NCBI RefSeq assembly: GCF_000062885.1
Contig: NC_009142.1
Span: forward strand, 4,267,584-4,331,583
From: Saccharopolyspora erythraea NRRL 2338
Lineage (GTDB): Bacteria; Actinomycetota; Actinomycetes; Mycobacteriales; Pseudonocardiaceae
Direction of reading: 5' to 3'
DNA length: 64,000 bases
Shown here: positions 7,376 through 41,340 of the stretch, in pieces
Numbering within the stretch: position 1 is the first letter of the stretch
Layout: each line of letters opens with the position of its first letter
Translations under genes and position numbers: made by a program
The notes under the pieces: model-generated
What the model was told of the DNA's origin: nothing
The model's input: the letters and a program-made list of their open reading frames with translations, nothing else
The model's database searches: none

Positions 7376-7378
7376 CCG

Positions 7379-17273: not shown

Positions 17274-17295
17274 CCGCCGCGGCGCCGGTGCACCG

Positions 17296-18319: not shown

Positions 18320-19861
18320 GTGAAGGGTGCGGAAGGCCTGCTGGCCACGGCGATCGAGGCGGGCGTGCGGGTGTGCTTCGCCAATCCGGGCACGACCGAG
18401 ATGCCGCTCGTGGAAGCCTTCGACGCGGTGCCCGGCATTCGCACCGTGCTCGGCCTGTCCGAGGGCGTGGTGACCGGTGCGGCCGACGGCTACACGCGGA
18501 TGGCCGGGGTACCCGCCATGACGCTGCTGCACCTCGGTCCGGGTTTCGCCAATGGCATCGCCAACCTGCACAACGCGCGCCGCGCCCGCACCCCGGTGAT
18601 CAACGTCGTCGGGGAGCACGCCACCTGGCACCAGCCCGCCGACGCACCGCTGGCCAGCGACATCGAGTCGCTCGCGGCGCCGGTCTCGGGCTGGGTGGGA
18701 CGGACCACGTCCGCGCGGTCGGCGGGGGCCGAGTTCGTCGAGGCGCGCCAGGCGGCCCTCCGGGACCGGTTGCCCGCCACGCTGATCGCCGCGGCCGACC
18801 ACATGTGGAGCGAGGGCGGCACGACCGCCGACGTCCCGCCTGCCCCCGGTCCGGCCGAGGTCGAGCAGGAGCAGGTCGACGCGGTCGCCAAGGTCCTCGC
18901 CTCCGGGGAGCGCCCGGCGCTGCTGCTTGGCGGGAACGCGCTGAGCGCCGACGGGATCCGCACGGCCGCGCGCATCGCCGCGGCGGTCGGCGGCGAGGTC
19001 CTCGCGGAGCGTTCGCCCGCCCGCATCGAGCGGGGTCCGGACGTGCCGCCGCTGCGCTCGCTGCCCTACTTCCCAGAGGACGTGCTCGGCAGCCTCGACG
19101 GCTTCTCGCACCTGGTGCTGGTGGGCACGACCGAACCGGTGGCGTTCTTCGGCTACGAGGGCATGCCCAGCGTCCTGGTGCCGGACGGCACGCAGCTGCA
19201 CACGCTCGCCGATCCGGGCCAGGACGCCGCGGCGGCGCTCGACGCCCTCGCCGAGGCCACCGGCAGCGCCGATGCACGACCGCCCGCCCCGCAGCGCCCG
19301 GAAGTGCGGGCGCCGCAAGGAGATCTGACCTCCTCGGCGATCGCGGCGGCGATCGTGCTCACCCAGCCGGAAGGCGCGATCGTGGTCAACGAAGGCGTTT
19401 CCTCGTCCGGTGCGTACCCGGGCCTGGCCGCCGCCGCGCCCCGCCACACCGAGATCACGCTCACCGGCGGCGCGATCGGCATGGGCATCCCGGCCGCCAC
19501 CGGCGCGGCGGTCGCCTGCCCGGACCGGCACGTGATCGACTTCCAGGCCGACGGCAGCGCCCTCTACACGGTGCAGGGGCTGTGGACCCAGGCCAGGCAG
19601 CGGCTGGACGTCACCACCGTGATCTGCTCGAACTCCCGCTACCGCATCCTGGAGGCGGAACTCAGCCGCGCCGGGGTGGACCGGCCGGGGCCGGCCGCCG
19701 CGGGCATGACCGCCCTCGGCGACCCCGCACCCGACTGGACCGCGCTCGCGGCGGGCTTCGGCGTCCCGGCGGTCCGGGCCACCACGGGCGAGCAGCTGCT
19801 GGACGCCCTGCGCCAGGCGAGCCTGGAGCCCGGCCCGCACCTGGTGGAGGCCGTCATCTGA
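18320..19861 (+). CDS. Thiamine-pyrophosphate enzyme, acetolactate synthase large-subunit-like
   Basis: 513 aa with the three-domain TPP enzyme plan: N-terminal pyrimidine-binding domain (conserved Glu in GLSEGVVTGAADGYTR), middle domain, and C-terminal PP domain (QADGSALYT near residue 410, then CSNSRYRIL). It belongs to the shorter ALS/benzoylformate-decarboxylase-like group (about 515 aa), for which substrates are mostly unproven. No regulatory subunit gene is adjacent, which argues against a housekeeping acetolactate synthase. The GTG start follows GGAAGGAG. Its last 8 bases overlap the 3' end of the opposing response-regulator gene. Confidence 0.85.
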   Translation: MKGAEGLLATAIEAGVRVCFANPGTTEMPLVEAFDAVPGIRTVLGLSEGVVTGAADGYTRMAGVPAMTLLHLGPGFANGIANLHNARRARTPVINVVGEHATWHQPADAPLASDIESLAAPVSGWVGRTTSARSAGAEFVEARQAALRDRLPATLIAAADHMWSEGGTTADVPPAPGPAEVEQEQVDAVAKVLASGERPALLLGGNALSADGIRTAARIAAAVGGEVLAERSPARIERGPDVPPLRSLPYFPEDVLGSLDGFSHLVLVGTTEPVAFFGYEGMPSVLVPDGTQLHTLADPGQDAAAALDALAEATGSADARPPAPQRPEVRAPQGDLTSSAIAAAIVLTQPEGAIVVNEGVSSSGAYPGLAAAAPRHTEITLTGGAIGMGIPAATGAAVACPDRHVIDFQADGSALYTVQGLWTQARQRLDVTTVICSNSRYRILEAELSRAGVDRPGPAAAGMTALGDPAPDWTALAAGFGVPAVRATTGEQLLDALRQASLEPGPHLVEAVI

Positions 19862-20519
19862 CCGCGGTGCGCGCTCTGGTCACCTCCGGTTCCGGTGGCT
19901 GGTCGAGCAGCGAGTGCCGCAGCGCGAAGGAGGCCGCCTCCAGCCGGGAATGCACGCCCAGCTTGGTCAGGACCGACTGCACGTGGGTCCGCACGGTGGT
20001 CGAGGACACCCCCAGCCCCCTCGCCATCGCACGGGTCTGCGCACCTTCGACGAGCAGCTCCAGGCACTGCCGCTCGCGCGCGGTGAGGTGCGAGGCCAGC
20101 CGCCGCGCGTCGGTCGTGCCGCGCAGCTTCGGCGCCCGCGACGCCGCCAGCTCGACCACCACCTCGCCGTCGACCACCGCGCGGATCGCGGTGGCCAGCA
20201 CGGAAAGGCCGCACATCTTGTTCACGTAGCCGGTCGCGCCCCGTCCCAGCGCGTCGCGCATGCCCTGCACGTCGCCGTCGGCGGTGAGCACGAGGACCTT
20301 CGTGCGCCCGTCGGTGATCTTCTCGACCACCGTCAGCCCGTCGCCGTCGGCGAAGTACCTGTCCAGCAGGCACACGTCCGGCTGGTGCGAGCGCACCGCG
20401 GCCAGCGTGTCCTCGATGCTGCTCGCCGTGCCCACCACGCGGAAATCGTTTTCCGGAAGCGCGCTCACCAGCGCGTCCACGAATATCGCGTGGTCGTCAC
20501 CGAGCACCAGATCGACCAT
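19854..20519 (-). CDS. LuxR-type response regulator (downstream of a soluble histidine kinase)
   Basis: 221 aa. The N-terminal receiver has the acidic pair LGDDH, the phospho-acceptor Asp in CLLDRYF, Thr in VLTADGD and Lys in YVNKM. The C-terminal helix-turn-helix starts at LTARERQCLELL and continues through VSSTTVRTHVQSVLTKLGVHSR. The ATG at 20519 has GGAAGGGGG upstream. It overlaps the end of the kinase gene by 23 nt, so the two are translationally coupled and likely cognate. It ends in an 8-nt tail-to-tail overlap with the TPP enzyme gene. Confidence 0.9.
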   Translation of the reverse strand: MVDLVLGDDHAIFVDALVSALPENDFRVVGTASSIEDTLAAVRSHQPDVCLLDRYFADGDGLTVVEKITDGRTKVLVLTADGDVQGMRDALGRGATGYVNKMCGLSVLATAIRAVVDGEVVVELAASRAPKLRGTTDARRLASHLTARERQCLELLVEGAQTRAMARGLGVSSTTVRTHVQSVLTKLGVHSRLEAASFALRHSLLDQPPEPEVTRARTAVR

Positions 20520-21201
20520 CGCATCCCCCTTCCCGTCGGCGTCGCCTCCACGACGGGCCCGGTCGGGCGCCGAAGACGACAACGACCCGCGTGCCGCCCC
20601 CCGGCGGCGAGTCGATGCGCAGCCGCGCCGCGCACGCGTTGGCCAGGTCGTGGACGATCGCCAGTCCCAGCGAGGCTTTGCCGCTGGGCCCCCGGCCGAA
20701 GCCGGGACCGTCGTCGGCGACCTCCACCACGACACCGCCCGACGCGCGCCGGGACACCGCGACCTCGACGGTGCCGTCGGCTCCCGCGGCGCGCACGGCG
20801 TTCTCGACCAGGTTGGCCAGCATCCGCCACATCGCGGTGCGGTCGGTGCGCAGGGTGCACGGCTCGCCCGGCCGCAACCGGACCTCGGCCGGCGCCGACA
20901 ACCGCGTGACCGACACCAGTTCGGCCACCAGCTCGCCGACGTCGAACACCTCGGAGGCGGCGGGCCGGTCGTCGACCAGTTCCACCAACCGCTCCAGTTC
21001 GCGTTCCATGAGCCGCAGCCGGTGCCGCGCGCTGCCGGACAGCGACGCCTCGGCGTCCATCCCCTCCCTCAGGTACGACAACGTCGCCAGCCCCCTGCCC
21101 AGGTCGTGCAGCAGTCCCTGGACCTCGGGTGGCTCCGCGCGCCCCCACTTCCACGCAGATCCCCGATGCAAAGCCGCTCCTTCGTCCGGCCATCCCGTCA
21201 T
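20497..21201 (-). CDS. Small soluble histidine kinase without a sensor domain
   Basis: 234 aa. A HisKA-like helix carries LLHDLGRGLATLSYL (His as phospho-site), followed by the ATPase domain with the N box NLVENAVRAAG, G1 DDGPGFG and the G2-like GKASLGLAIVHDLANA. No transmembrane helix or PAS/GAF domain is visible, so it probably receives its signal through another protein. The ATG at 21201 is a best guess; no strong ribosome site is seen and the frame stays open upstream. It lies between a glycosyltransferase gene and its response regulator on one strand, linking it to polysaccharide control. Confidence 0.8.
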   Translation of the reverse strand: MTGWPDEGAALHRGSAWKWGRAEPPEVQGLLHDLGRGLATLSYLREGMDAEASLSGSARHRLRLMERELERLVELVDDRPAASEVFDVGELVAELVSVTRLSAPAEVRLRPGEPCTLRTDRTAMWRMLANLVENAVRAAGADGTVEVAVSRRASGGVVVEVADDGPGFGRGPSGKASLGLAIVHDLANACAARLRIDSPPGGGTRVVVVFGARPGPSWRRRRREGGCDGRSGAR

Positions 21202-21260: not shown

Positions 21261-22418
21261 CTACTCCACGTGCATGACCCGGGCGGCGGCGGGAGTCCGC
21301 GAGCCACCGTATGCGTCCCCCAACGCCTCCGCGAGCGCAGCCGAGTCGTGCCTGCCCGCGATCCGCGCGGCGGCCGCCCGGGCCATGCGCAGCGCTTCGC
21401 ACGGCTCGTCGAGCAGGCGTGCGACGGCAGCGGCCAGCAGCTCCGGCCGTCCGGGAGGAGCCAGCAGTCCCGTCTCGCCCGGCACCACGACGTCCCCGAC
21501 GGCGTTCACGGCCGTGGCCGCGACCGGGATCCCGCAGCGCATGGCCTCGACGACGGCCAGCGGCAGGCCCTCGTACCTGCTGGACATGGCGAAGACGTCG
21601 AAGGCGGGCAGCAGGTCCACCGCGTCGGCCCGGTCGCCGGTGAAGACCAGGCGCACCCCCGCCCGCTCGGCGAGGTCGCGTGCCTCACCGGCGAGCTCTC
21701 CCCCGCCGACCCAGACACCGACCACGCCCCGCGGACGCAAGGCGCGCAGCGCGGCGACGAAGTCGTCCGGCGCCTTCTGGTACGTCAGCCTCCCCACGGT
21801 CCCCACGACGGGCACGTCGGGTGGAAGTCGCAGCGCTCGGCGCGCGTCGTGCCGCGACTGCGGTGTGAGCACCCGAACAGGGTCCACGGCTACGCCGATC
21901 GTGCGAACGCGTTCCGGGGGCACGAGGCGCCGTCGCAGCGCCTCGACGGCGACACCGGTGCCTACGCACAGTGACAGGTCGGTGATGCGGCCGAGCGCCC
22001 GTTCGACGGCGACATAGGTAGCCCGGCGTGTCACCCGTTGGAACTCGTGGAACGGGAAGCCGTGGTAGGTGTGCACGATCCGCGGCGCACCCGTGCGGCG
22101 CGCCGCGAGCCGGCCGAGCGTGCCCGCCTTCGCGCAGTTGGTGTGCACGACGTCGAACTTCCGCCTCGCCAGCAGCCGGACCAGCCCGGCCAGGGCGAGC
22201 ACGTCGGCGTGCGGTGCGATCGGCGCGCGCAGCGCCGGGACCAGCACGGTCTCGAGCCCGGCGGCGCCGGCCTCGCGCAGCAGCCGGCCGCCGCTGCCCG
22301 CCACGATCGTCACCTCGTACTCCGCCGGATCCAGCGCCCGCCCTCCACGCAGGACCATCTCGCCCGCACCGCCTTCCAGGCGGGTGACGACCGCGGCGAC
22401 CCGCAGCCGGCCGCTCAC
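21261..22418 (-). CDS. Glycosyltransferase family 4
   Basis: 385 aa with a GT-B layout: N-terminal acceptor domain starting VAAVVTRLEGGAGEMV, linker, and C-terminal donor domain with GTVGRLTYQKAPDD and the E-x7-E type motif SSRYEGLPLAVVEAM. It should transfer a sugar from a nucleotide donor onto a lipid-linked glycan at the cytoplasmic face. The GTG start overlaps the upstream response-regulator stop by 4 nt (GTGA), so expression is coupled. The histidine kinase follows after about 60 nt. Confidence 0.88.
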   Translation of the reverse strand: MSGRLRVAAVVTRLEGGAGEMVLRGGRALDPAEYEVTIVAGSGGRLLREAGAAGLETVLVPALRAPIAPHADVLALAGLVRLLARRKFDVVHTNCAKAGTLGRLAARRTGAPRIVHTYHGFPFHEFQRVTRRATYVAVERALGRITDLSLCVGTGVAVEALRRRLVPPERVRTIGVAVDPVRVLTPQSRHDARRALRLPPDVPVVGTVGRLTYQKAPDDFVAALRALRPRGVVGVWVGGGELAGEARDLAERAGVRLVFTGDRADAVDLLPAFDVFAMSSRYEGLPLAVVEAMRCGIPVAATAVNAVGDVVVPGETGLLAPPGRPELLAAAVARLLDEPCEALRMARAAAARIAGRHDSAALAEALGDAYGGSRTPAAARVMHVE

Positions 22419-23092
22419 CGCATCGGCCTCGGACCGTGCGGGCGCATCCCCGCCGAGGTGGCCACGCTGACCGCCTCGAGCTGGCTGTGCACGTGCAGCT
22501 TGGCCAGGATGCTGCGGGTGTGGGTGCGCACGGTCTCGGTGGAGATCCGCAGCTCCTCGGCGATCCGGCTACCGCGCTTGCCCGCCACCATGCCCTGCAG
22601 CACGTCGCGTTCGCGGTCGCTGAGGCAGTCCAGCGGCCCGGTCCGCTCGGTGGCACGGACCGCGTCCTCGCGCAGCTCGCGCAGGACGATGCCGAGCAGT
22701 TCCGGCGGATACCAGCCGTGGCCCGCGCACACCCCGCGCAGGACCGCGGTCAGCTCGTCCACACCGGACTCCTTCGACACCCACGCCTGCACGCCGGCAC
22801 GGGCCGCCTCCACCGCCTGATCGGGATCGTGGCGTCCGGTGAGCACGACGACGTGCACCTGCGGACGTTCCCGCCGGAGCAGGCGGACCAGCTCCCCGCC
22901 GCGCGTGCCCACCGGTTCGACGTCGACGGTGATGACGTCCGGCCGCAGCCTGCGCACCATCTCCGGCAACCGGGGGTCCTCCAGCTCGCACCGGCCCACC
23001 AGCCACAGGTCCGGCACCGTCGACAACCGCACGCTCAGCGCCTCGGTGAGCATGAGGTGGTCGTCCACCATGAGCAGCCGCACGAAGTTCAC
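22415..23092 (-). CDS. LuxR-type response regulator (upstream of GT4)
   Basis: 225 aa. Receiver domain with MVDDH, phospho-acceptor Asp in VITVDVEP, Thr in VVLTGRHD and Lys in WVSKESG. The output helix-turn-helix is LSDRERDVLQGM through ISTETVRTHTRSILAKLHVHSQ. The start is ambiguous: the GTG at 23092 gives the usual short lead before the receiver, while an in-frame GTG at 23122 adds ten basic residues and has GAGGAC very close. It ends in a GTGA overlap with the glycosyltransferase gene. This second regulator lacks its own adjacent kinase and may share the one at 20497-21201. Confidence 0.88.
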   Translation of the reverse strand: MNFVRLLMVDDHLMLTEALSVRLSTVPDLWLVGRCELEDPRLPEMVRRLRPDVITVDVEPVGTRGGELVRLLRRERPQVHVVVLTGRHDPDQAVEAARAGVQAWVSKESGVDELTAVLRGVCAGHGWYPPELLGIVLRELREDAVRATERTGPLDCLSDRERDVLQGMVAGKRGSRIAEELRISTETVRTHTRSILAKLHVHSQLEAVSVATSAGMRPHGPRPMR

Positions 23093-23180
23093 CGCCCAAC
23101 GATCCCGTCCCCGGCGCGCCACGTCCTCGTGCGAACGCAGGAGTTCCGTCTCATGTACACGGCCGAGTGACCGTGGGTCA

Positions 23181-24506
23181 TCACCCGGCCCGCAGGTCCG
23201 GTTCCGGCTCCCGCACCTGCTGCGGTTGCTGCGGCGTGGCCTCGACCGGCCTGCGCCCGGGGCTGCTCCACCGCCCCGTCGAGCGCGCCAGCCAGGCCTG
23301 CGGCAGCGCGTACAGCGAGATCGCCGCGTCCAGCACCCGCATGAACAGGAACACCGGTGCGTAGAGCAGGAACCGCGGCCGGCGCTGGATCAGCGCCACC
23401 AGGCACGTCAGCAGCAGGTCGGGCAGCACGATGCCGAAAAGCATCACCGGCAGGCTCAGGTGCGCCGCGACCGCGGCGTGGACCTCACCGATCACCGGCA
23501 GGTGCGCCACCGAGCCGAACACCTCCGGGATCACCAGCAGCGCGAGCAACAGCGGCAGCAGCACGATCATGATGCTGCTGCTCAGCAACTCCAGGAGCAG
23601 CAGCCCGAGCATCGCGGTGAACAGGTTCGCCTTCGGCGGGTGCAGCCTCACCGTCTGCCACAACCCGAGCGACCACCGCTTGCTCTGGCGCACGTAGTCC
23701 TTGAACGTGCCCGGTTCCTGGGTCACCGCGACCGCCGACGGCGTGAAGCCCACCTTGCCCAGGGCCTTCTGGTAGACCTCGAAGGTCATGTTGAAGTCCT
23801 CGATCACCAGACCCGGCGGGTTCACCTCGATCTCGGGCAGCACCGCGGTCCGGTACAGGCTGGCGAACCCGGGCACGATGTGGGTGGCGTTGACCCGGCG
23901 CCAGGTCTGGCCGAACTTCAGCAGATACTGGGTCATGGTGTAAATCCGCTGGCGGTGGTAGGCCACCAGCCTGCCCACCTGCGAGAGCCTGCTGTCATCG
24001 GTGGTGGAGCGCACGCACCCGGCGACCGCGACCACGCCCGGGTCGGCGAACAGCGGCAGCGCGGCCCGGAAGTACCCGGGCTCGACGTGGGTGTCGGCGT
24101 CGAGCAGCATCACGACCTCGAACCGCTCGACGAGCCGGAACCGCCGGATGCCCTGGTGCAGCGCGCCCGCCTTGCCCACGTTGGTGGCCGTGCTGATCAC
24201 GTTCACCCCGCAGCGCCGGGCCAGCTCCACCGTGCGGTCGGTCGAGCCGTCGGAGATCACGTGCACGTTCTGCCTGGGCACCAGCGAGGTGATCGCGTTC
24301 AGGCTGTCGACGATGACCTCCTCCTCGTTGTGCGCCGGGATGAGCACGGCGACGTCGCTGACATCGAGGTCGACCGGTGCGGGTGCCCTGCTCTTGGACC
24401 ACCAGCCCCACGTCGAGCTGTCGAGCAGCCGCAGAAGTCCGATCACGCCCCACAGCGTGAAGTTGGTCCCGAAGACCACAATGGCCAGCAACCACCACGG
24501 AATCAT
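23181..24506 (-). CDS. Membrane processive glycosyltransferase family 2 (poly-GlcNAc/hyaluronan synthase-like)
   Basis: 441 aa. One N-terminal membrane helix, then a GT-A domain with VAVLIPAHNEEE, the DAD metal motif in MLLDADTH, the ED acceptor motif in VIEDFNM and the processivity motif QSKRW. A set of C-terminal membrane helices (from about residue 300) follows. This layout matches IcaA/PgaC-like and chitin/hyaluronan-type synthases that polymerise and extrude a beta-linked sugar chain. The ATG at 24506 overlaps the GH18 stop by 4 nt. With a GH18 and a deacetylase in the same locus, an N-acetylhexosamine polymer is the most economical guess. Confidence 0.88.
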   Translation of the reverse strand: MIPWWLLAIVVFGTNFTLWGVIGLLRLLDSSTWGWWSKSRAPAPVDLDVSDVAVLIPAHNEEEVIVDSLNAITSLVPRQNVHVISDGSTDRTVELARRCGVNVISTATNVGKAGALHQGIRRFRLVERFEVVMLLDADTHVEPGYFRAALPLFADPGVVAVAGCVRSTTDDSRLSQVGRLVAYHRQRIYTMTQYLLKFGQTWRRVNATHIVPGFASLYRTAVLPEIEVNPPGLVIEDFNMTFEVYQKALGKVGFTPSAVAVTQEPGTFKDYVRQSKRWSLGLWQTVRLHPPKANLFTAMLGLLLLELLSSSIMIVLLPLLLALLVIPEVFGSVAHLPVIGEVHAAVAAHLSLPVMLFGIVLPDLLLTCLVALIQRRPRFLLYAPVFLFMRVLDAAISLYALPQAWLARSTGRWSSPGRRPVEATPQQPQQVREPEPDLRAG

Positions 24507-25660
24507 CCATTCCTCCCCCGTGATTTCGTCACCGGGAGACTGGCCCGCAGCTCTGGCCAGGTGCCGGTGTCCTCATAGCCGTACATCCACAGGTAGACGC
24601 CGCGGATCCCGGACCCGCGAGCGGCTTCGAACTTCGCCTTGGAGCTGGCGGTGTTCTCGAACCACACCTCGTGCCGCCGCCCCTGCGCGTCGGTGTAGGC
24701 GAACCAGGGCGACTGGGTGCGTGCGTCGTAGAACGTCGGCACCTTGTGCTCGGTCGCGAGCTTGAAGGCCTGCAGCCACGTCACCGAGGTCCCCTGGCCG
24801 TCGACCCAGTCGTAGCCGTAGAGCGGCACGCCGAGCACGATGCGCTCCCTGGGCACCACACTGGTCGCGTAGCTGAGCACGTCGCGGATCCAGCCGACCG
24901 GAGCGACAGGACCGGGGCGCGAGGTTCCCCAGTGGAAGTCGTAACCCATCAGCCGGACCTGGTCGGCCACCTGGCCGATCGCGGCGTAGTCCTGCGCGAC
25001 GTTGCGCTCGTCGTAGCCGGCATCGGAGGTCTTGGCGAACACCGCGACCGACAGCGTCTTGCCCTCGGCGTGCAGGGCCCGTCCCAGGTCGGTGACGAAC
25101 CGGGTGAACTGCTCGCGGTCGCCGGCGCGCAGATTCTCGTAGTCGATGTCGATACCGGCGTAGTTCTCGCGCTTGACCAGCTCGACGATCTCGAACACGT
25201 GGCGCCGCATCAGTTCCGGGTCGTGCAGCATCCGCGCCACCGGTTCGTAGGACCAGTTCCCCTCGGTGATGTTGGCCAGCGACGGCACGATGGGGATCTG
25301 CGCCTCGCGCAACCGCTGGAGGTGCCCGGCGACCTCGGTGGCCTGCGCGGGCGAGTACTGGATGGTGAGCCTGCCGTCGTCGCCGAGCCCGTACATCCAC
25401 GGCGACACCTCGTTGACCGCGGTGCGGTTCTGCACCACCGTCGCCGTGCCGTTCCCGAGGTTCCAGAACGGCAACGACGCCACCACCACGGTTCCCGAGG
25501 GCACCACCGGCGCGGGTCTGGGCACCGCCATCACGGCGGCCAGCACCATCGCGCAGCCGATCAGCGCCAGGAACCACACCGAACCGGCCCTGCGCCGCAG
25601 GGCGGCGACCGGTTGCGCGGCCACCGACCTGAGCCGTGGCCTCGTCGTCTTGTTCGCCAT
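24503..25660 (-). CDS. Membrane-anchored glycoside hydrolase family 18
   Basis: 385 aa. A basic N-terminus and a hydrophobic segment (about residues 28-46) predict a signal anchor with the catalytic domain outside. The GH18 active-site motif is present as GIDIDYENL near residue 170, with the catalytic Glu. The product is related to chitinase/spore-cortex YaaH-like proteins and might trim or release the polymer made by the adjacent GT2. Start ATG at 25660, ten nt after the epimerase gene ends. The coupling to GT2 by ATGA overlap argues for a biosynthetic rather than nutritional role. Confidence 0.87.
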   Translation of the reverse strand: MANKTTRPRLRSVAAQPVAALRRRAGSVWFLALIGCAMVLAAVMAVPRPAPVVPSGTVVVASLPFWNLGNGTATVVQNRTAVNEVSPWMYGLGDDGRLTIQYSPAQATEVAGHLQRLREAQIPIVPSLANITEGNWSYEPVARMLHDPELMRRHVFEIVELVKRENYAGIDIDYENLRAGDREQFTRFVTDLGRALHAEGKTLSVAVFAKTSDAGYDERNVAQDYAAIGQVADQVRLMGYDFHWGTSRPGPVAPVGWIRDVLSYATSVVPRERIVLGVPLYGYDWVDGQGTSVTWLQAFKLATEHKVPTFYDARTQSPWFAYTDAQGRRHEVWFENTASSKAKFEAARGSGIRGVYLWMYGYEDTGTWPELRASLPVTKSRGRNG

Positions 25661-25670
25661 CGGCCCGTCC

Positions 25671-26651
25671 TCATTCCGCCGCGACCGCGGGCACCTGCCG
25701 GGACCGCGTCTGCTCGGCGATCACGGCGCGGATGATGTCGTCCAGCGTCCTGGACGGCTCGAAGCCGATGAGTTCCCTGGCCCGGGAGCAGTCCGGCACC
25801 CGCCGCTGCATGTCCTCGTAGCCCGGGCCGTAGGCCTGCTCGTAGGGCACCCGCACGGTGTCGCTGGACGAGCCGGTCATCTCGATGATCCGGGCGGCCA
25901 GCTCGGCGATCGAGACCTGCTCGCCGCTGCCCAGGTTCACCGCGCTGCCGCGCGCCTTGTCCAGCTGCACCAGCTCGACCAGCGCGGGCACCACGTCGTC
26001 GACGTGGCAGAAGCAGCGGACCTGCCTGCCGGTGCCGAAGATCGTCAGCGGCCTGCCCTGCAGCGCCTGGTTGACCATCCGGGGGATGACCATGCCGTAG
26101 CGCCCGGTCTGGCGCGGTCCGACGGTGTTGAACAGCCGCACGATCACCGCGCGCAGTCCCAGCTCGCGCACGTAGGCGTGGGTCAGGCTCTCGTCGATGG
26201 CCTTGGCTTCCGAGTAGGTCCAGCGCGACATCAGCGGCGAGCCGATGACGCGGTCGTCGCCCTCGCGCAGCCCGACCTTCGGATTCTTGCCGTAGATCTC
26301 GCTGGTGGAGGCCAGCAGCAGCCGGGCGTTGTAGCGCAGCGCCGCGTCGAGCACGTTCTCGGTGCCGTGGATGTTGGTGAGCAGGCTGCGGATCGTCCGC
26401 TCCTGGATGACGAACGCGCCGACCGCCGCCGCGAGGTGGAAGACGATGTCCACTTCGGACGTCAGCTCGTCGACCAGCCCGCGGTCCATGACGCTGCCGT
26501 TGACGAGCTCGAATTCGTCGGCGTCGGGCAGGTTCTCGAACCGGCCGGTGCTGAGGTCGTCGAGCCCGACCACGCTGTGCCCCTCGGCGAGCAGTTGCTC
26601 GGTCAGGTGCGAGCCGATGAACCCGGCCGCGCCGGTGACCAGTGCCTTCAT
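25671..26651 (-). CDS. NAD-dependent nucleotide-sugar epimerase/dehydratase
   Basis: 326 aa, extended SDR. The glycine-rich NAD motif VTGAAGFIGSHL is at the N-terminus, the substrate site shows STSEIYGK and the active-site YxxxK is in WTYSEAKAIDE. NTVGPRQTGRYGMVIPR follows, as in UDP-glucose/UDP-glucuronate 4-epimerases and decarboxylases. It likely provides an activated sugar for the exopolysaccharide; with the nearby nucleotide-sugar dehydrogenase a uronic acid or xylose-type donor is possible. The frame is open far upstream but the ATG at 26651 overlaps the GT4 stop (ATGA), fixing the start. Confidence 0.9.
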   Translation of the reverse strand: MKALVTGAAGFIGSHLTEQLLAEGHSVVGLDDLSTGRFENLPDADEFELVNGSVMDRGLVDELTSEVDIVFHLAAAVGAFVIQERTIRSLLTNIHGTENVLDAALRYNARLLLASTSEIYGKNPKVGLREGDDRVIGSPLMSRWTYSEAKAIDESLTHAYVRELGLRAVIVRLFNTVGPRQTGRYGMVIPRMVNQALQGRPLTIFGTGRQVRCFCHVDDVVPALVELVQLDKARGSAVNLGSGEQVSIAELAARIIEMTGSSSDTVRVPYEQAYGPGYEDMQRRVPDCSRARELIGFEPSRTLDDIIRAVIAEQTRSRQVPAVAAE

Positions 26652-27736
26652 CGCTGGGCCTCCCCCAGTCGTGCGTACAGGTCGTCGATGCGACCGGTGA
26701 CGGCCTCGATGCCGTACCGGCGGCGGATCTCGGGGACGTCGGCGCGCGGCCTGCGTTCGCTGATCTCGCGCGCGATCTCGGCGCGCATGCGCTCGGGGTC
26801 CCCGGGCACCTGGCGGGCGCGGTCGGTGTCGATGCCGTCCATGGCCGGGCAGGTGGTGTAGAGCGCGGGCATGCCGTTGGCCAGCGCCTCCAGCACCGAC
26901 AGCCCGAAGGTCTCCTGCGCGGAGGAGGCCACGAACAGGTCCAGCGACGACAGCATCGCGGCGACGTCGTGCCGCTCGCCCGCGAAGACGACGTGGTCGG
27001 AGATGCCGTGCGCGCGCACCAGCTTCTCCAGCCGCTCGCGGTCGGCGCCGTCGCCGACGAGCAGCAGCTTGGTGCGCTGGTCCACCAGCGGTGCCATCGC
27101 GTCGATGACGAGGTTGAACCTCTTGTTCGGATCGAGCCTGCCCAGCACCCCGACCACGAAGGCGTCCGGCGGGATGCCGTGCTCGGCCCGCACCCGCCCT
27201 CTGGCCTCCGCGTCGAAGCGGACCCGGCCGAAGTCCACGCCGTTGGGGATCACGGTGATCTTGCGCGGCCGCACTCCCCAGTTCACCAACCGCGTCGCGA
27301 CGGTGTCCGACACCGCGATCGTCGCGTCCGAGCACAGGTCGGTGCCCAGGTACAACGCCCGCACGCCCAGCGTCATGCGGCGCCGTTCGAGGTGGGTCTC
27401 GCCGATGGAGTGCTCGGTGGTCACCACGACCTTCGTGCCGGCCAACCGCGCCGCCAGGCGCCCGTACACGCAAGCCCGGTAGAGGTGGGTGTGCACCACG
27501 TCGTAGCGCTCGTCGCGGATCAGCTCGCGCAGCCTGAGCACCGCGCTGAGCTGGGTGTTGCTGGTCATCCCGAGGTCGCGGACCCGCACGCCGTCGGAGC
27601 GGATCATGGAGGCGACGTCTCCCGGGTTGTACAGCGCGACCACGTCGGAGTCGTGCCTGGTGTGCTGGAGTACCGACCGGAGCTGGAGCTCGGCGCCGCC
27701 GACCCCGAGCCCTGTGATCACGTGCAGAACCTTCAC
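26648..27736 (-). CDS. Glycosyltransferase family 4
   Basis: 362 aa, GT-B fold. N-terminus VLHVITGLGVGGAELQ is the standard acceptor-domain opening; the donor domain has LGRLDPNKRFN and the motif SSAQETFGLSVLEALANG with the conserved Glu pair. It adds a sugar to the lipid-linked intermediate made by the priming transferase just upstream. The GTG start at 27736 has GGGAGG at 6 nt and overlaps the sugar-transferase stop by 4 nt. Confidence 0.9.
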   Translation of the reverse strand: MKVLHVITGLGVGGAELQLRSVLQHTRHDSDVVALYNPGDVASMIRSDGVRVRDLGMTSNTQLSAVLRLRELIRDERYDVVHTHLYRACVYGRLAARLAGTKVVVTTEHSIGETHLERRRMTLGVRALYLGTDLCSDATIAVSDTVATRLVNWGVRPRKITVIPNGVDFGRVRFDAEARGRVRAEHGIPPDAFVVGVLGRLDPNKRFNLVIDAMAPLVDQRTKLLLVGDGADRERLEKLVRAHGISDHVVFAGERHDVAAMLSSLDLFVASSAQETFGLSVLEALANGMPALYTTCPAMDGIDTDRARQVPGDPERMRAEIAREISERRPRADVPEIRRRYGIEAVTGRIDDLYARLGEAQR

Positions 27737-29109
27737 CGTCGTCCTCCCATGGCTCGTGCGACGATCGCGACCGTGCGGGCCACGACCACCAGGTCCATCC
27801 ACAGCGACCAGTACTCGATGTACTGGTTGTCGAAGCGCGCGCGGTCCGGGATCGAGGTGTCCCCGTGCAGGCCGTGGACCTGCGCCCATCCCGTCATGCC
27901 GCCCGGCATCCGGTGCCGGTCGGCGTAGTGCGGTATCTCCCCTGCGAAACGCTTGGCGTAGTAGGGCCGCTCGGGTCTGGGACCCACCAGCGACATCTCC
28001 CCGCGCAGCACGTTGACCAGCTGCGGCAGCTCGTCGAGATGCGTCCCCCGCAGCCACCGCCCGAGCGCGGTGCACTGGTCGGCCGCGACCGCCCACTTCT
28101 CGCCGGTGTCGACCAGCGTCCGCAGCTTGACCACCCGCACCAGCCGCCCGGTCCGGCTGACCCGCCACTGGCAGAAGAAGGTCGTGGCCTTGCCGCAGCC
28201 GCGCACGATCCCGGCCAGCACCAGCAGCACCGGTGCGAGCAGCACCAGCAGCACGGTGCCCACGACCAGGTCGAAGGCGCGTTTGGCCACTGCCGACAAC
28301 AGGTTCGGCCTGCGCAGCGGCACCAGCACGACTCCCCAGATCTCGTCGAGGCACGCCCTCGGCACCGCCAGCCCCAGCTCGCCGGGCCTGGGCACCAGGC
28401 AGAAGTCCACGCCCACCGACCGGCACGCGCGCACCGCGGCCACCAGTGCCCCGTCGTCGCCTTCCGGAGCGCAGACCAGCACGCGCGCGATGCGGTACCG
28501 CGCGATCACCCCGGCCAGGTCCGCGACGCCGCCGAGAGCGGGAAGCCCCCTCACCGCCCCGAAACCACCGCCCGCGACCCAGCCCGCCGAGCGCAACCCG
28601 CATTCCGGGTGCTCGGCGAGGAGCCCGGCGATCCGGGCGGCCTCGTCCCCGCTCCCGACGACCAGCGCCGGTTCGACCAGCCTGCCGCGGCGGTGGGCCG
28701 CCCTCAGCAGCCCGTACGCCGCGCCACGCGCGGTGACCAGCGCGCCCGCGGTGAGCAGCGCCAGCAGCACGGCCGCTCCCGGAGCGGTCCACGGCAGCAG
28801 CACCGCCACCGGCAGCAACGCCGCCACCGCGATCCGGGGTGCCTGGTCGGACACCCGCAGGCAGATCCGCAGCCGGTGCTGGCCCTGACCGGCGAGCACG
28901 GCCAGGACCGCCAGGCCGTAGGCGGCCCCGGCCGGCACCGGCACCTGCGCGAGCACCGCCGGCACCACCACCGCCACCAGATCGGTGACCGGCAGCGCCG
29001 ACGCCTTCACCACCCGCGTGGACCGCGCGTCGCACGGGTGCTCGCGGGTGAGCGAGGGCAGCGCGGCGGTGAAGCCGCCGTGCTCGGATCGCAGGCCGGG
29101 GGCGCTCAT
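27733..29109 (-). CDS. Polyprenyl-phosphate sugar phosphotransferase (priming enzyme)
   Basis: 458 aa. N-terminal half with several hydrophobic segments and a nucleotide-binding-like region; C-terminal half is the bacterial sugar transferase domain: membrane helix near LLVLLAPVLLVLAG, then VKLRTLVD, LDELPQLVNVLRGEMSLVGP and GWAQVHGLHG. It resembles WbaP/WcaJ-type enzymes that start a repeat unit by moving a sugar phosphate onto undecaprenyl phosphate. One oddity: the usual KFRSM-type motif reads VKLRTLVD, and the DELPQ core is intact. The gene overlaps both neighbours by 4 nt. Confidence 0.9.
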   Translation of the reverse strand: MSAPGLRSEHGGFTAALPSLTREHPCDARSTRVVKASALPVTDLVAVVVPAVLAQVPVPAGAAYGLAVLAVLAGQGQHRLRICLRVSDQAPRIAVAALLPVAVLLPWTAPGAAVLLALLTAGALVTARGAAYGLLRAAHRRGRLVEPALVVGSGDEAARIAGLLAEHPECGLRSAGWVAGGGFGAVRGLPALGGVADLAGVIARYRIARVLVCAPEGDDGALVAAVRACRSVGVDFCLVPRPGELGLAVPRACLDEIWGVVLVPLRRPNLLSAVAKRAFDLVVGTVLLVLLAPVLLVLAGIVRGCGKATTFFCQWRVSRTGRLVRVVKLRTLVDTGEKWAVAADQCTALGRWLRGTHLDELPQLVNVLRGEMSLVGPRPERPYYAKRFAGEIPHYADRHRMPGGMTGWAQVHGLHGDTSIPDRARFDNQYIEYWSLWMDLVVVARTVAIVARAMGGRR

Positions 29110-30341
29110 CTACCGACGCCTCCCACCGCCATGCGGCGGGAGCGCAGCGCCGACAGCCGCCCGCTGACCTGCCGCACCGCGTAGTCGGCCCCGTAGACGA
29201 AGCGCATGACCGGTCCGTGCTCCGGGGCCACGACCGCGCCGACGAAGAACAGGCCGGGGACCGAGGACTGGAAGTCGCGGCCCACCCGCGGCGTACCCGC
29301 GAGCGTGCTCAGCCGCGAGCGCAGTTGCGGTCCCACGAACGACAACCGCGCCAGGTTGGGCGGATAGCCGGTCGCGCCGATGACGTGGTCGGCCTCGAAC
29401 TCCCGCCTGCCGTGCCCGTTGGCCCGCACCCCGAGCCGGACGCGGTGCCCGTCCTGTGCCGCCCAGTCGATCCCGTGGGACAGCCGGACCGGGAACTTGC
29501 CCTCGACGCGCTCGCGCAGCCACCAGGCCCCCGCCGGCCCCAGCGCGGTGCGCGCCCGGTAGACCCTGGTCTGCTTCGGCAACCGCCGGAACAGCCGTGG
29601 GTGCTCGGAGTAGAACCAGGTCGAGAGCCCCGAACCGAGACCGGCCTCGGGTTCCCGCATGCGTTGCAGCAACGGGCGGTCCGGCAGCAGCGGTCGCCCG
29701 TTCCACACCAGACCGTCCGCGCGCACGAGCATCTGCGTGCGTGCCCCGTGCTCGTGCAGCAGCGCCGCCGTCTCCAGCGCCGACTGCCCCGCCCCGACGA
29801 CGATCACCTCCCGGTCCTGGAACACGCTGAGGTCGGTGTGCTCGGAGCTGTGCGTGCACAGCTCGGTCGGCAGGTCCTCCAGCACCTCGGGCAGGCGGGC
29901 GAAGTGCTCGACACCGGCTGCCACCACCACGTTGCGGGCGCGGACCTGCTCACCGTCGGCCAGGGTCAGGTCGAAGTGCTCGTCGCGCCTGCGCACGTCG
30001 GTGACCAGCCGCTCGTCGACCTCCAGCCCCCGGTCGAGCCGGAACCACTCGCCGTAGGAGACGAAGGTGTCCAGCGACACCGGCACCCCGTAGTCGGCGT
30101 AGGTACGGCCGGTCTCGCGGCAGAAGTTGCGCAGCGAGTGCGTCCCGTCCGGATCGGACAGGTTGGAGGCGAACCCCTGCGACTTCAGGTACATGCCGCG
30201 CGGCATCGCCGTGCGCCACAGCCCCATCGGGACGCCGAACTGCCGGTAGGACACCCCGTTGGCGCGCAGATGCGCGGCCAGCGACAGCCCGTACGGCCCG
30301 GCGCCGACGATGGCCACGTCGACGAGGTCGTAGTCGTTCAT
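29106..30341 (-). CDS. FAD/NAD(P)-dependent flavoprotein monooxygenase-like protein
   Basis: 411 aa. FAD motif VGAGPYGLSLAAHL at residue 12 and a second Rossmann motif VVGAGQSALETAALL near residue 180, followed by the late GATGYPPN box, the layout of Class B-type and N-hydroxylating monooxygenases. Substrate is unknown. The ATG at 30341 is preceded by GGAGAAAAAGG. It overlaps the ATP-grasp gene upstream and the priming transferase gene downstream by 4 nt each, so it is made with them. An N- or C-oxidation of an amino group on, or destined for, the polysaccharide is a possible role. Confidence 0.82.
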   Translation of the reverse strand: MNDYDLVDVAIVGAGPYGLSLAAHLRANGVSYRQFGVPMGLWRTAMPRGMYLKSQGFASNLSDPDGTHSLRNFCRETGRTYADYGVPVSLDTFVSYGEWFRLDRGLEVDERLVTDVRRRDEHFDLTLADGEQVRARNVVVAAGVEHFARLPEVLEDLPTELCTHSSEHTDLSVFQDREVIVVGAGQSALETAALLHEHGARTQMLVRADGLVWNGRPLLPDRPLLQRMREPEAGLGSGLSTWFYSEHPRLFRRLPKQTRVYRARTALGPAGAWWLRERVEGKFPVRLSHGIDWAAQDGHRVRLGVRANGHGRREFEADHVIGATGYPPNLARLSFVGPQLRSRLSTLAGTPRVGRDFQSSVPGLFFVGAVVAPEHGPVMRFVYGADYAVRQVSGRLSALRSRRMAVGGVGR

Positions 30342-31588
30342 ACCTTTTTCTCCTTTCCCGGGCGAAAATGCAGCCGCCGCAACGGGCGAGTAGCCGCGCG
30401 TGCGCCCATCCACAGGCACATCAACGCGAAGGGTGTGAGGTCGTCGCGCGCGTACCACGCGGTCTCGTCCACCGCGCGGACCGAGTCGGCCCACGAGCGC
30501 AGCCCGAGCCGCCCGTCGCGCCAGTAGCGCAGCGCGGCGATCGGGTCGTAGTTCTCGACCAGGAACCGCCTGCCGGGAACCGAGGTCCCGGCGGGCGTGG
30601 CCTGTCCGGTCAGGTCCAGGTAGGCGGCCAGCGCGACGTCCACGCCCGCGCTGTCCTCGAACAACCGGAACTGCGCTCCGAGACGGGGGTTGAAGTCCAG
30701 CAGCTTGTACTGGCCGTCCCTGGCGTCCCAGCGGAAGTCCAGGTCCACGATGCCCCGGAAGTCCAGCCGGTGCAGCAGATCGGTCGCGTGCCGGTGCAGT
30801 TCGGCGTTCTCGGCCCAGCGGCCGAGGCTGGTCAGCCCGGCGTGCGCCGGGTACGACCGCTCCTTGGTGCCCACGAAGGAGGCGGTGCACCGCGCTTCGG
30901 CGTCGCAGTAGCCGTGGAAGAACCAGTCGTGCCCGATGCCGCCCGGCAGGTACTCCTGCAGCATCAGCCGCTGGTCTCCGGGCAGCCGGCACAGCTCGGC
31001 GAGCTCGGCCCGGTCGTGCACGATCGTCGTGCTGCGCCGCCCGGCGCCGTTGCGCCACGGTGTCGGGAGCTTGACCACCACCGGGAACCCGAAGCGGTCG
31101 GCGAACTCGCCCGCCTCGTCGGGACTTCCCACCATCGTCGCCTGGGCGCACGGCACGCCGAGCGCCTGGCACAGCCGGTACATCGTGTACTTGCCGGCGA
31201 GCAGCCGCGGCAGGTCGTGCGGCGGCTGCGGGAAGCTGAACCACTCCCGCAGCGAGTTCCCGTGCTCGGCGAGGAAGATCGCACCCGCGTCGTCGGTCGG
31301 GAACAGCACCGCGGTGCGCCCGATCCGCTCGGCGATGCCGCGCAGTCCCCGCAGCACGCCGTCCACGTCCTGGGCGTCGGGCCGCCACACCCAGTGGCCC
31401 CGCACGTAGCGGGAGTGCGCGGCCGGCGCGTACCGGTGCTCCTGCACCGCGTACATCGGCACACCGGCCCGCCCGAGGCTGCGGATCAGGCCGAGCCCAC
31501 CGTGGTGCATGACGTTGGGGTCGAGCTTGAAGACCACCGCGGGGGTCGAGGTGTCGAGGCCGTCGAGACGGCCGTGGTGCCTGCCCAT
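30338..31588 (-). CDS. ATP-grasp ligase-like protein
   Basis: 416 aa. An N-terminal nucleotide-fold region (FKLDPNVMHHGGLGLIRSLG) is followed by an ATP-grasp domain: LLAGKYTMYRLCQALGVP (hinge), GFPVVVKLP (ATP lysine), LMLQEYLPGG and the metal-binding LLDFNPRLGAQFRLF. ATP-grasp enzymes form amide or thioester bonds between a carboxylate and an amine via acyl phosphate. In an exopolysaccharide cluster this suggests joining an amino acid to a uronic acid or amino sugar. Start ATG at 31588, 15 nt after the dehydrogenase gene; overlaps the flavoprotein gene by 4 nt. Confidence 0.82.
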   Translation of the reverse strand: MGRHHGRLDGLDTSTPAVVFKLDPNVMHHGGLGLIRSLGRAGVPMYAVQEHRYAPAAHSRYVRGHWVWRPDAQDVDGVLRGLRGIAERIGRTAVLFPTDDAGAIFLAEHGNSLREWFSFPQPPHDLPRLLAGKYTMYRLCQALGVPCAQATMVGSPDEAGEFADRFGFPVVVKLPTPWRNGAGRRSTTIVHDRAELAELCRLPGDQRLMLQEYLPGGIGHDWFFHGYCDAEARCTASFVGTKERSYPAHAGLTSLGRWAENAELHRHATDLLHRLDFRGIVDLDFRWDARDGQYKLLDFNPRLGAQFRLFEDSAGVDVALAAYLDLTGQATPAGTSVPGRRFLVENYDPIAALRYWRDGRLGLRSWADSVRAVDETAWYARDDLTPFALMCLWMGARAATRPLRRLHFRPGKEKKV

Positions 31589-31603
31589 CTGGTCGATTCC
31601 CCC

Positions 31604-32947
31604 TCACACGACCCGGCGGTGGGCGGCGGCGTCGAACTGGTAGGTCGCGTCGATCACCAGCGGGCACCGCGTGGCCCAGCCGTAGTCGAGTCCGGGGTGG
31701 ACGGTGTGCATGAGGACCAGGTCGCAGTCCTGGCCCGGGTCCGGGACGCTCTGCAGCTCCGTCCCGTCCTCCAGCACCACTTCGGGGATGAGCGGGTCGT
31801 AGTAGGAGACGTGGACCCCCGCCCGGCGCAGGCCGGAGATGATCGGCAGCGCGGGCGACTCGCGCAGGTCCCGCACGCCGGCCTTGTAGCTGACACCGGC
31901 GATCAGCACCCTCGCGCCGCGGGGTGGCACGGCAGCGTCGACCAGTTCCTCCAGGACCCGGCGCACGACCTGGTCCGGCCGGTGCTCGATGGAACGCATC
32001 GCCTGCTCGATCAGCGGCACCCGCACGCCGTGCTCGCGCAGCTGCCACAGCAGGTAGTGCGGGTCGCACGGGATGCAGTGCCCGCCGACGCCGGGACCGG
32101 GGAAGCTGCCGAGGAACCCGTAGGGCTTGGTCCCGGCGGCGATGGTGACCTCGACGGGATCGAGGTCCAGGTCGCGGCAGACGTCGGCGATCTCGTTGGC
32201 CAGCGCCAGGTTCACCGCGCGGAAGATGTTCTCGTAGAGCTTGGTCAGCTCCGCCGCCTCCGGCGAGCCGACCAGGTACACCGAGTCGGTGGTGCGCCCG
32301 ATGACGTGCGCCGCCCGCTCCGCGCAGGACCTCGTGACGCCACCCACGATGCGCGGGGTCTCCCGCTGGGTGTGGTCGAGGTTGCCGGGGTCGATGCGCT
32401 CCGGGCTGAAGGCCACGTGCACGTCGGTGCCCACCCGCAGCCCGCGCCTGCGCAGCGGCTCCACCAGCAGCATCCGGGTGGTGCCGACGAACGTGGTCGA
32501 GGTGAGGATGATCGTCTGCCCGTTGCGCACGTGGGCGACGACGCTCTCGCACGCCGCGCGCAGCGCCGAGAGATCGGGAGTGCGGTCCTCGTCGACGGGC
32601 GTGGGCACGCACACGATGACCGTGTCGGCTTCGGTCAGCACCGCCGCGTTGTCCGAGAGCCGCAGCGCGCCCGACTCCAGCACCTCGGCCAGCCCCCGTC
32701 GCTGCGCCTCCGGCAGGTCGACCTCACCCGCCCGGATCTCGGTCAGCCGCCGCGCGCTGGTGTCCAGACCGGTGACCCGCGCTCCGCACGCCGCGAGCGA
32801 GTAGGCCGTGGGCAGTCCGACGTAACCCAGACCGACTACCGCGACGGGTTCGCCGACGTGGGCGTTGCGCCGTATGAACGGGACCAGCCGTTCGAAGAGC
32901 TGGTGCTCCCTGCCGTTGACGGCCAGGGCGAGTGGACTTGCGGTCAC
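31604..32947 (-). CDS. Nucleotide-sugar 6-dehydrogenase (UDP-glucose/UDP-GlcNAc type)
   Basis: 447 aa. N-terminal NAD domain VAVVGLGYVGLPTAYSLA, middle domain with AFSPERIDPGN and KLYENIFRAVNLALANE, and the active-site cysteine loop GPGVGGHCIPCDPHYL near residue 290. The four-electron oxidation of a UDP-sugar gives a UDP-uronic acid. The sequence looks closer to the UDP-N-acetylhexosamine dehydrogenase branch (WbpA/WecC-like) than to Ugd, though this is judgement. GTG start with GGGAGG 4 nt upstream. First gene after a 99-nt gap from the deacetylase. Confidence 0.9.
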   Translation of the reverse strand: MTASPLALAVNGREHQLFERLVPFIRRNAHVGEPVAVVGLGYVGLPTAYSLAACGARVTGLDTSARRLTEIRAGEVDLPEAQRRGLAEVLESGALRLSDNAAVLTEADTVIVCVPTPVDEDRTPDLSALRAACESVVAHVRNGQTIILTSTTFVGTTRMLLVEPLRRRGLRVGTDVHVAFSPERIDPGNLDHTQRETPRIVGGVTRSCAERAAHVIGRTTDSVYLVGSPEAAELTKLYENIFRAVNLALANEIADVCRDLDLDPVEVTIAAGTKPYGFLGSFPGPGVGGHCIPCDPHYLLWQLREHGVRVPLIEQAMRSIEHRPDQVVRRVLEELVDAAVPPRGARVLIAGVSYKAGVRDLRESPALPIISGLRRAGVHVSYYDPLIPEVVLEDGTELQSVPDPGQDCDLVLMHTVHPGLDYGWATRCPLVIDATYQFDAAAHRRVV

Positions 32948-33046
32948 GATCCCTCCCAGTTCATGCGCGCGTTTCCGCCTGAATCCGGCTACGAGAACCG
33001 TCGCACCCGCGTCTGCCGCGGCCCTCCTCCAACGGGGTTAGTGCGA

Positions 33047-33793
33047 CTACCGAAATGACAGGAGTTCGGTTACCCCCATCTCGTGACGGACCCGCTTGGC
33101 CAGCAGCCTGAGGTGGCCGTCGCTGTCGCCGACGTAGGTGCGCGGGAGCGCGTGCCTGCCGGTCAGCGGCGAGTACCAGATCGCGCACCCGTAGTCGTAG
33201 CCGCAGTCGCGCACCGCGTCGCGCACCCGCCGGCTCAGGTCCCCGTAGGGGTAGCAGAACCCGCCGACGTCCTGACCGGACAGGGTGCGCAGCACCTCGC
33301 GGCTGCCCGCCACCTCCTCCGCCAGCTCGTCGTCGTCCAGTTCGGACAGGCGGCGGTGCAGCATGCCGTGCGAGCCGATCTCCATCCCGGCCAGGACGGC
33401 CTGCTCGACCTGCTCGGAGGTCATCAACGGCTTGCGCGGCCCGTCCGGGTCCCAGACGTTGCTGCCGCCGAGCCTGCCTGCGATGACGAACACGGTCGCG
33501 GTGAAGCCGTGCCGCCGCAGGGCGGGCACGACGTGGTGCATGAAGTCCTGGTAGCCGTCGTCGAAGGTCAGGCCGACCAGGCCGCGCGGGTCGTCGGCCG
33601 CCATCAGCTCGCCCATCGACACGCCCCGCAGCCCGCGGCGCTCCAGCCACCGCAGCTGCCGCTCGAACCGGGCGGGGTCCACCGTCACCCGGTAGGGGTC
33701 TTGCGCGTACTCGGAAACCGAGTGGTACATCAGCACGTACGGCAGCGCGCGCCCCGATGGGGCCGCGATCTGCTCCTGAACGGTCCAGGCCAT
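33047..33793 (-). CDS. Polysaccharide deacetylase (NodB domain, carbohydrate esterase 4)
   Basis: 248 aa. The NodB motif 1 LTFDDGYQDF is near residue 74, with the catalytic and metal Asp residues, and motif 2 GSHGMLHRR near residue 142 supplies the metal histidines. A later FCYPYGDLS matches motif 3. No signal peptide is apparent, so it may act in the cytoplasm or be exported without a classical leader. It removes N-acetyl (or O-acetyl) groups from sugars. ATG at 33793; first gene of the exopolysaccharide run and adjacent to an inserted element upstream. Confidence 0.88.
   Translation of the reverse strand: MAWTVQEQIAAPSGRALPYVLMYHSVSEYAQDPYRVTVDPARFERQLRWLERRGLRGVSMGELMAADDPRGLVGLTFDDGYQDFMHHVVPALRRHGFTATVFVIAGRLGGSNVWDPDGPRKPLMTSEQVEQAVLAGMEIGSHGMLHRRLSELDDDELAEEVAGSREVLRTLSGQDVGGFCYPYGDLSRRVRDAVRDCGYDYGCAIWYSPLTGRHALPRTYVGDSDGHLRLLAKRVRHEMGVTELLSFR

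Positions 33794-39427: not shown

Positions 39428-41340
<1,913 letters not shown>

Follow-up and report, generated by a model that had tools for sequence, protein, structure and literature searches.

A conserved envelope-polysaccharide locus of Pseudonocardiaceae, predicted to make a nitrogen-modified surface polymer

Introduction

Some systems for poly-N-acetylglucosamine (PNAG) include a surface hydrolase. According to excerpts of PMC5972031, PNAG loci (pgaABCD, icaADBC and Streptomyces matAB) combine a processive-type GT2 glycosyltransferase with a CE4 deacetylase. In the excerpted parts of their papers, the Actinoplanes clusters wps (PMC13390465) and imp (PMC12691653) are Wzx/Wzy-dependent exopolysaccharide clusters; wps has a sugar transferase (wps-2), GT4 enzymes and a deacetylase (wps-3). 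Here, we analyse an operon of Saccharopolyspora erythraea NRRL 2338 that shares gene kinds with both. It lies in a stretch of 64,000 nucleotides (positions 4,267,584-4,331,583 of an 8,212,805-base contig), which as a whole is called the window. Nine named genes encode a deacetylase, a nucleotide-sugar dehydrogenase, an ATP-grasp ligase, a flavoprotein, a priming transferase, a GT4 glycosyltransferase (GT4a), an extended short-chain dehydrogenase/reductase (SDR), a GH18 hydrolase and a GT2. Our most secure statement is that the operon is a conserved envelope-polysaccharide locus of Pseudonocardiaceae, undescribed as far as the literature search reaches. The gene set is real and conserved, and its product is probably an unusual nitrogen-modified surface sugar polymer.

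Results

The operon comprises 13 minus-strand genes, from 33793 down to 19854 (Table 1). Its 12 junctions are six 4-base overlaps, one 23-base overlap and five gaps of 10 to 99 bases; start codons were inferred for two genes, the histidine-kinase-like protein and the second LuxR-type regulator. The original prediction, made from the sequence alone, had described a near-continuous operon of the nine named genes at 23181-33793. All nine were found there as minus-strand open reading frames (ORFs), each over the Pfam cut-offs of its named family, with five 4-base overlaps and gaps of 99, 15 and 10 bases between them, and the unit extends four genes further.

Conservation in the family was assessed by single-protein searches of 200 genomes, for GH18 and ATP-grasp only, with cut-offs (E<=1e-100 and E<=1e-75, respectively) set after seeing gaps in the match lists. 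GH18 was found in 37 genomes (41 at 1e-40) and ATP-grasp relatives in 43; at 0.001, the latter number rose to 109, largely through weak hits from other ATP-grasp proteins. Both proteins occurred in 35 of the 200 genomes, GH18 only in two (drafts G048 and G167) and ATP-grasp only in eight (Fisher p 6e-29, for genomes that are not independent). The two genes were on one contig in 32 of the 35, spaced by 5,835-6,379 bases; the other three are drafts with the genes on different contigs. Across the wider class, 43 of 394 genomes had a match to the ATP-grasp profile at 1e-30.

Neighbourhoods with an ATP-grasp match were probed for the parts of the operon. The count excludes the operon's own window, stretches L107-L109 of the same genome and any locus shorter than 6500 bases. 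The remaining 53 loci were sorted into type A (19 loci), type B (10), type C (2) and 'other' (22, of which contig ends truncate at least six: L039, L042, L043, L047, L048 and L118). Type A loci were chosen for a GT2 (over 45% identity) and a GH18 beside the ATP-grasp gene, so these two are no independent tests there. The remaining seven named genes were found in 19/19 loci, so that each carries all nine. The response regulator RR1 follows the GT2 in 14 of the 19, and only L038 of the other five has no room for it; GT4b is downstream of the GT2 in 13, with too little room in L038, L049 and perhaps L050 among the other six.

Across the 31 loci of types A, B and C, the deacetylase and GT4a were each found in 31, and the priming transferase and the flavoprotein each in 30. 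With the ATP-grasp ligase, these form a core that is joined to three different sets: GT2 and GH18 in type A, a MurJ-like flippase and Wzy in type B, and a PelF-type set in type C. The dehydrogenase is present in 19/19 type A loci, 0/10 of type B and 0/2 of type C. MurJ and Wzy probes found nothing in the 19 type A loci. The original prediction held that the operon fits no standard locus. This stands for the standard pathways tested (see below), but the core is not unique, as it recurs with Wzy and a flippase in ten loci.

Type B loci come from Streptomyces stelliscabiei (one), families f21 and f19 (four each) and the window's own family (one); the f21 loci group with S. stelliscabiei and are probably Streptomyces. 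All ten have the deacetylase, GT4a and a GH26-like gene, nine the priming transferase, nine the flavoprotein and six a GNAT gene. Wzy was detected in eight by probe search and separately in the other two (L046, L124). Dehydrogenase, SDR and GH18 were found in none, and there was one weak GT2 match (31%, L061). The GH26-like hydrolase and the GNAT protein (Acetyltransf_6) occur together in L046, L113, L116 and L124-L126. The two type C loci, L041 and L055, have a PelF-type gene (PF11997 in L041, which we take to mark PelF) and a membrane protein without a Pfam match. In L055, a 681-aa protein with a signal-like start (15361-17406) adjoins the PelF-type gene; it has no Pfam match and may resemble fungal Agd3-type deacetylases.

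On a tree of 53 ATP-grasp proteins (L048 was too short for it), the type labels were clustered, with 10 changes against a shuffled mean of 24.6. Neither type A nor type B can be explained by a single change, and the grouping of L045 with L061 was flagged as a possible long-branch effect. Exchange of chain-building and export sets around one core is therefore suggested, not proven.

In 43 of the 53 neighbourhoods, no more than 408 bases separate the flavoprotein gene from the ATP-grasp gene, with both orders and both orientations occurring. The flavoprotein gene is 4.5 kb away in L044 and was not found in nine, one of them cut by a contig end. The ATP-grasp match to PF02786 (35.5 bits, cut-off 19.8) covers a short stretch only. 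For the structure model (mean predicted local distance difference test score, pLDDT, 85.3; predicted template modelling score 0.86), the nearest PDB folds by Foldseek were 2pn1 (a CPSase-like protein, E 4.5e-17), PurK and biotin carboxylases, with the amino-acid ligase RizA only at rank 32. The protein thus has an ATP-grasp fold, and K133, K173, D298 and N300, presumably its ATP/metal residues, are unchanged across 19 aligned rows. Since the nearest folds are of mixed chemistry and RizA ranks so low, the amino-acid decoration of the original prediction is one candidate among several: the ligase may form an amide or a carbamate, or attach some other acyl group.

The flavoprotein model (pLDDT 84.7) was nearest to SsDesB, PvdA, SidA and putrescine N-hydroxylase, and the bacillithiol reductase YpdA first appears at rank 26. 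The best single sequence match was also SsDesB (E 1.2e-8, residues 9-203 only). The protein has the FAD and NADPH Rossmann motifs and the predicted fold of the N-hydroxylating monooxygenases; GAGPYG and GxGQSALE were found in 14/14 aligned rows. It is predicted to be nearest to amine N-hydroxylases, which lends support to the 'oxidised amine' decoration of the original prediction, although the chemistry itself is predicted only.

The ATP-grasp gene also occurs in other settings. UbiA-family genes are linked to arabinan-type wall loci. A single genus supplies five genomes (L063-L066, L068) in which the ATP-grasp gene shares a neighbourhood with a UbiA-family gene (assigned by Pfam on L063 and by clustering on the others), and the flavoprotein is found in three of the five; these may be arabinan-type wall loci. 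A HAD hydrolase is also present in L063. In L111, L112 and L123 (genus g71, probably Streptomyces), the ATP-grasp gene is near a fumarylacetoacetase-like gene (assigned by Pfam on L111 and by reading on the others), with the flavoprotein in two of the three.

Membrane segments were identified by a simple Kyte-Doolittle scan, without a signal-peptide program. The GT2 has them at both the N- and C-terminus, and its DAD, ED and QxxRW motifs are unchanged across 12 aligned rows. QxxRW together with membrane segments is typical of synthases. The GH18 is nearest to YdhD and YaaH in the PDB; D171, D173 and E175 are unchanged across 13 aligned rows, and its single N-terminal hydrophobic segment is consistent with the surface location originally proposed.

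The window ORFs scanned with Pfam were selected by codon-position GC and visual inspection, which may have passed over genes that are small or mis-framed. Among them, MurJ, Wzx, Wzy and ABC exporters had no match, in agreement with the original prediction that no Wzx, Wzy or ABC exporter is visible; two major facilitator superfamily transporters were found (52780-54177, 59054-60397). Because no known exporter kind matched, the GT2 is the likeliest local export route, with distant genes also possible. The whole genome has two MurJ and two Wzy_C genes, all outside the operon locus, and no Wzx-type PF01943 match over cut-off.

The deacetylase has zero segments above the hydropathy threshold, and TFDDG, H142 and H146 are unchanged across 14 aligned rows. 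The best PDB match of the dehydrogenase was UDP-N-acetylmannosaminuronate (UDP-ManNAcA) dehydrogenase, followed by Cap5O. It scored 204-212 bits on two UDP-ManNAc models, compared with 148, 114 and 37 on three UDP-Glc models, all under the equivalog cut-offs. GGHCIPCDP was found in 22/22 loci with a dehydrogenase match, and we take its GGHC to mark the UDP-N-acetylhexosamine (UDP-HexNAc) kind. By these comparisons, the enzyme appears nearest to the UDP-HexNAc dehydrogenases. The gene first called an epimerase does encode an extended SDR (PF01370), but its best solved relatives in the PDB are UDP-glucuronate decarboxylases; it is a putative nucleotide-sugar epimerase or decarboxylase. The priming transferase reached 283.4 bits on TIGR03025, slightly under the cut-off of 295.55. 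The genome has one other priming transferase, at 3.51 Mb with a Wzy_C gene beside it; the ORFs called over 20 kb there (L109) include no match to any further operon protein. According to an excerpt of PMC3936707, a polysaccharide deacetylase of S. spinosa is highest at early stationary phase, and it could not be tied to this locus.

Described gene sets were tested as explanations, and none fits. For plain PNAG, the GT2 scored 75.4 bits on its best named model, PgaC/IcaA (TIGR03937), against a cut-off of 422.3, and the deacetylase models were also missed (PgaB 51.4 vs 321.9; IcaB 30.5 vs 248.35). These missed cut-offs, together with the absence of a hydrophobic segment, speak against an exported PgaB/IcaB-type deacetylase. 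A standard Wzx/Wzy locus is rejected in that the priming transferase is present but Wzx and Wzy had no match among the scanned window ORFs. All XrtA/PEP-CTERM models were far under cut-off (TIGR03013 170.2/393.35, TIGR03006 35.4/276.2, TIGR03088 148.6/409.05 bits). For Pel, the PelF model NF038011 matched GT4a with 45.7 and GT4b with 33.8 bits (cut-off 100), and PelG had no family match among the scanned window ORFs.

Table 1 Genes of the operon, from the deacetylase end, with the evidence for each assignment.
Feature	Position	Strand	Evidence
NodB/CE4 polysaccharide deacetylase	33047..33793	-	PF01522 98 bits; no hydrophobic segment (probably cytoplasmic)
Nucleotide-sugar 6-dehydrogenase, UDP-HexNAc type by nearest relatives	31604..32947	-	PF03721/PF00984/PF03720; TIGR03026 377.7 bits, over cut-off
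ATP-grasp ligase	30338..31588	-	PF02786; predicted fold
FAD/NADPH flavoprotein, N-hydroxylating-monooxygenase fold	29106..30341	-	PF13434 58.6 bits (cut-off 21.3), PF13738; Foldseek
Polyprenyl-phosphate sugar-1-phosphate (priming) transferase	27733..29109	-	PF02397 175 bits
GT4 glycosyltransferase a (GT4a)	26648..27736	-	PF00534, PF13439
Extended SDR (nucleotide-sugar epimerase or decarboxylase)	25671..26651	-	PF01370 189 bits
Membrane-anchored GH18 hydrolase	24503..25660	-	PF00704 96.7 bits; N-terminal hydrophobic segment
Processive-type GT2, N- and C-terminal membrane segments	23181..24506	-	PF13641 84.6 bits, PF00535
Response regulator RR1, LuxR-type DNA-binding domain	22415..23122	-	PF00072, PF00196
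GT4 glycosyltransferase b (GT4b)	21261..22418	-	PF13692, PF00534
Histidine-kinase-like protein (start codon inferred)	20497..21201	-	PF02518 53.8 bits
Second LuxR-type response regulator (start codon inferred)	19854..20519	-	PF00072 62.8 bits, PF00196 60.6 bits

Directly upstream of the operon is an IS605-type TnpB gene (PF01385, PF07282; 34150-35436, plus strand), with an apparent broken TnpA fragment, seen by eye, at about 33800-34100 between it and the deacetylase gene. The near-identical relative L049 has a different gene at this place. Elsewhere in the window, a minus-strand gene pair (38363-41343) resembles a two-subunit 2-oxoacid:ferredoxin oxidoreductase, and relatives of the subunits are near the operon in 12/36 and 8/36 loci called. 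The KorA-like gene (12/36) and an amidohydrolase near the locus in relatives (6/36) were set aside as conserved-place neighbours, apparently without a sugar role. A minus-strand group at 895-8581 belongs to the S-adenosylmethionine cycle, with S-adenosylhomocysteine hydrolase, B12 methionine synthase, a PfkB kinase and S-adenosylmethionine synthetase.

Discussion

An N-modified surface polymer is the likely product of the locus, with its chemistry predicted; the chemistry of the decoration is the least secure part. We tentatively propose, at a little short of an even balance, that the product of the operon is a surface polysaccharide, with its sugars undergoing modification at nitrogen as lipid-linked units in the cytoplasm. 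The priming transferase, as judged from its family, would place the first sugar phosphate on the polyprenyl carrier, and GT4a, perhaps with GT4b, would add a hexosamine. The deacetylase, whose hydropathy suggests a place inside the cell, may free the amine of this sugar. Acting as a pair, the ATP-grasp ligase and the flavoprotein of N-hydroxylase type would then modify the amine or its joined group, and the result could be an amino sugar that is acylated and/or N-oxygenated. A second, HexNAc-uronate-derived donor may come from the dehydrogenase and the SDR. Because different gene sets stand beside one core, the GT2 is the candidate for chain elongation and export, the role held by Wzx/Wzy in the sister loci. 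Outside, the anchored GH18 may trim or release the polymer, and the regulators at the operon end presumably control the operon.

Several observations weigh against this proposal. RR1 and GT4b are absent from some type A loci that have room for them, and the relatives are not independent: most type A loci come from a single family, and L049 has an ATP-grasp protein with 98% identity. The GT2 alignment matched nothing in the PDB at 1e-6, and its best named model falls far short of its cut-off. The two MurJ and two Wzy_C genes elsewhere in the genome make export by distant genes possible. The family profile of the flavoprotein scores thioredoxin-reductase-like proteins above N-hydroxylases, which leaves fold and length as the main grounds for the N-hydroxylase reading. 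The ATP-grasp gene occurs without deacetylase or priming transferase in the five UbiA loci and in L111, L112 and L123; the substrate of the pair may therefore be a free small amine.

The distant genes could instead belong to a Wzx/Wzy-like heteropolymer or wall glycan, perhaps teichuronic-acid-like and wall-tied, in which outside genes flip and join the repeats and the GT2 adds one sugar or side chain. Ten sister loci pair the same core with a MurJ-like flippase and all have Wzy, and the own genome could supply a second MurJ and two Wzy_C genes. However, the Wzy genes are at distances of about 0.8 and 1.05 Mb, with one of them next to the other priming transferase, the second MurJ adjoins a Mur-ligase-like gene (by reading the sequence), and the GT2 retains the synthase-typical QxxRW and membrane segments. 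We consider this explanation unlikely. An ordinary PNAG locus of the pga/ica or matAB type with passenger genes would account for the GT2, deacetylase and hydrolase, and for PgaC/IcaA as the best named GT2 model; it is highly improbable, given how far the PgaC, PgaB and IcaB cut-offs are from being reached, a deacetylase without a hydrophobic segment, and 'passengers' kept in 19/19 type A loci.

Alternatively, the ATP-grasp/flavoprotein pair could make a small soluble compound, e.g. a hydroxamate, unrelated to any polymer and merely located in envelope loci. In L111 and L112, the pair adjoins the fumarylacetoacetase-like gene and has no polysaccharide genes around it, and the nearest flavoprotein folds include siderophore enzymes. 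Against this, the flavoprotein is kept in 30/31 and ATP-grasp, which was the bait, in 31/31 polysaccharide-type loci, and no siderophore assembly family matched among the scanned window ORFs; we regard a small-compound role as quite unlikely. Our proposal of a polymer modified at nitrogen while lipid-linked can be taken further, to a form that is speculative and rather doubtful. A portable ligase/N-oxygenase pair would write an N-oxygenated amide (hydroxamate-like) or an N-hydroxy amino sugar onto lipid-linked sugars. Actinobacteria would have combined the core with three machines for chain building and export, and only the pair with a possible arabinan-type wall locus, giving a nitrogen-oxidised structural polysaccharide that is perhaps metal-binding.

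The locus represents a conserved polysaccharide system of Pseudonocardiaceae that recurs in altered form in further actinobacteria. Clumping and the cell surface are important when antibiotic producers of this kind are grown in fermentations. If the pair does oxidise polymer nitrogen, this would be unusual chemistry for a bacterial surface glycan, and the matrix might bind metals. The joining of one core to GT2, Wzy/flippase or PelF-type sets provides natural experiments on export-route exchange.

Searches of open-licence PMC literature turned up no paper recognisable as describing this gene set, as judged from titles, abstract starts and passages. The prediction of an undescribed polysaccharide locus in which lipid-priming genes accompany a processive-type GT2 therefore holds as far as this search reaches, and its conservation strengthens it. 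The closest systems differ in several respects. Actinoplanes wps and imp depend on Wzx/Wzy, which had no match among the scanned window ORFs, and the term ATP-grasp is absent from the main texts of both papers. Like the type B loci, wps-1 carries GH26, and the excerpts of PMC13390465 state that no Wzx/Wzy cluster with a GH26 enzyme had been characterised before. XrtA/PEP-CTERM loci have similar enzyme kinds (an EpsB-type priming transferase, an stp2-type GT4 and a deacetylase). The Gram-positive Pel locus, as excerpted from PMC7112168, is approached by L041 and L055, where the core is joined to a PelF-type gene; 'PelG-like' is a guess from position for the membrane protein beside it. The N-hydroxylating monooxygenases SsDesB, PvdA, SidA and putrescine N-hydroxylase share the predicted fold and the FAD/NADPH motifs with the flavoprotein, at about 15-22% identity in structural alignments, whereas the flavoprotein sits in envelope loci. 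Compared with PNAG systems, the operon adds a priming transferase, GT4s, a sugar dehydrogenase, a ligase and a flavoprotein to the shared GT2 and deacetylase, the latter being without a hydrophobic segment.

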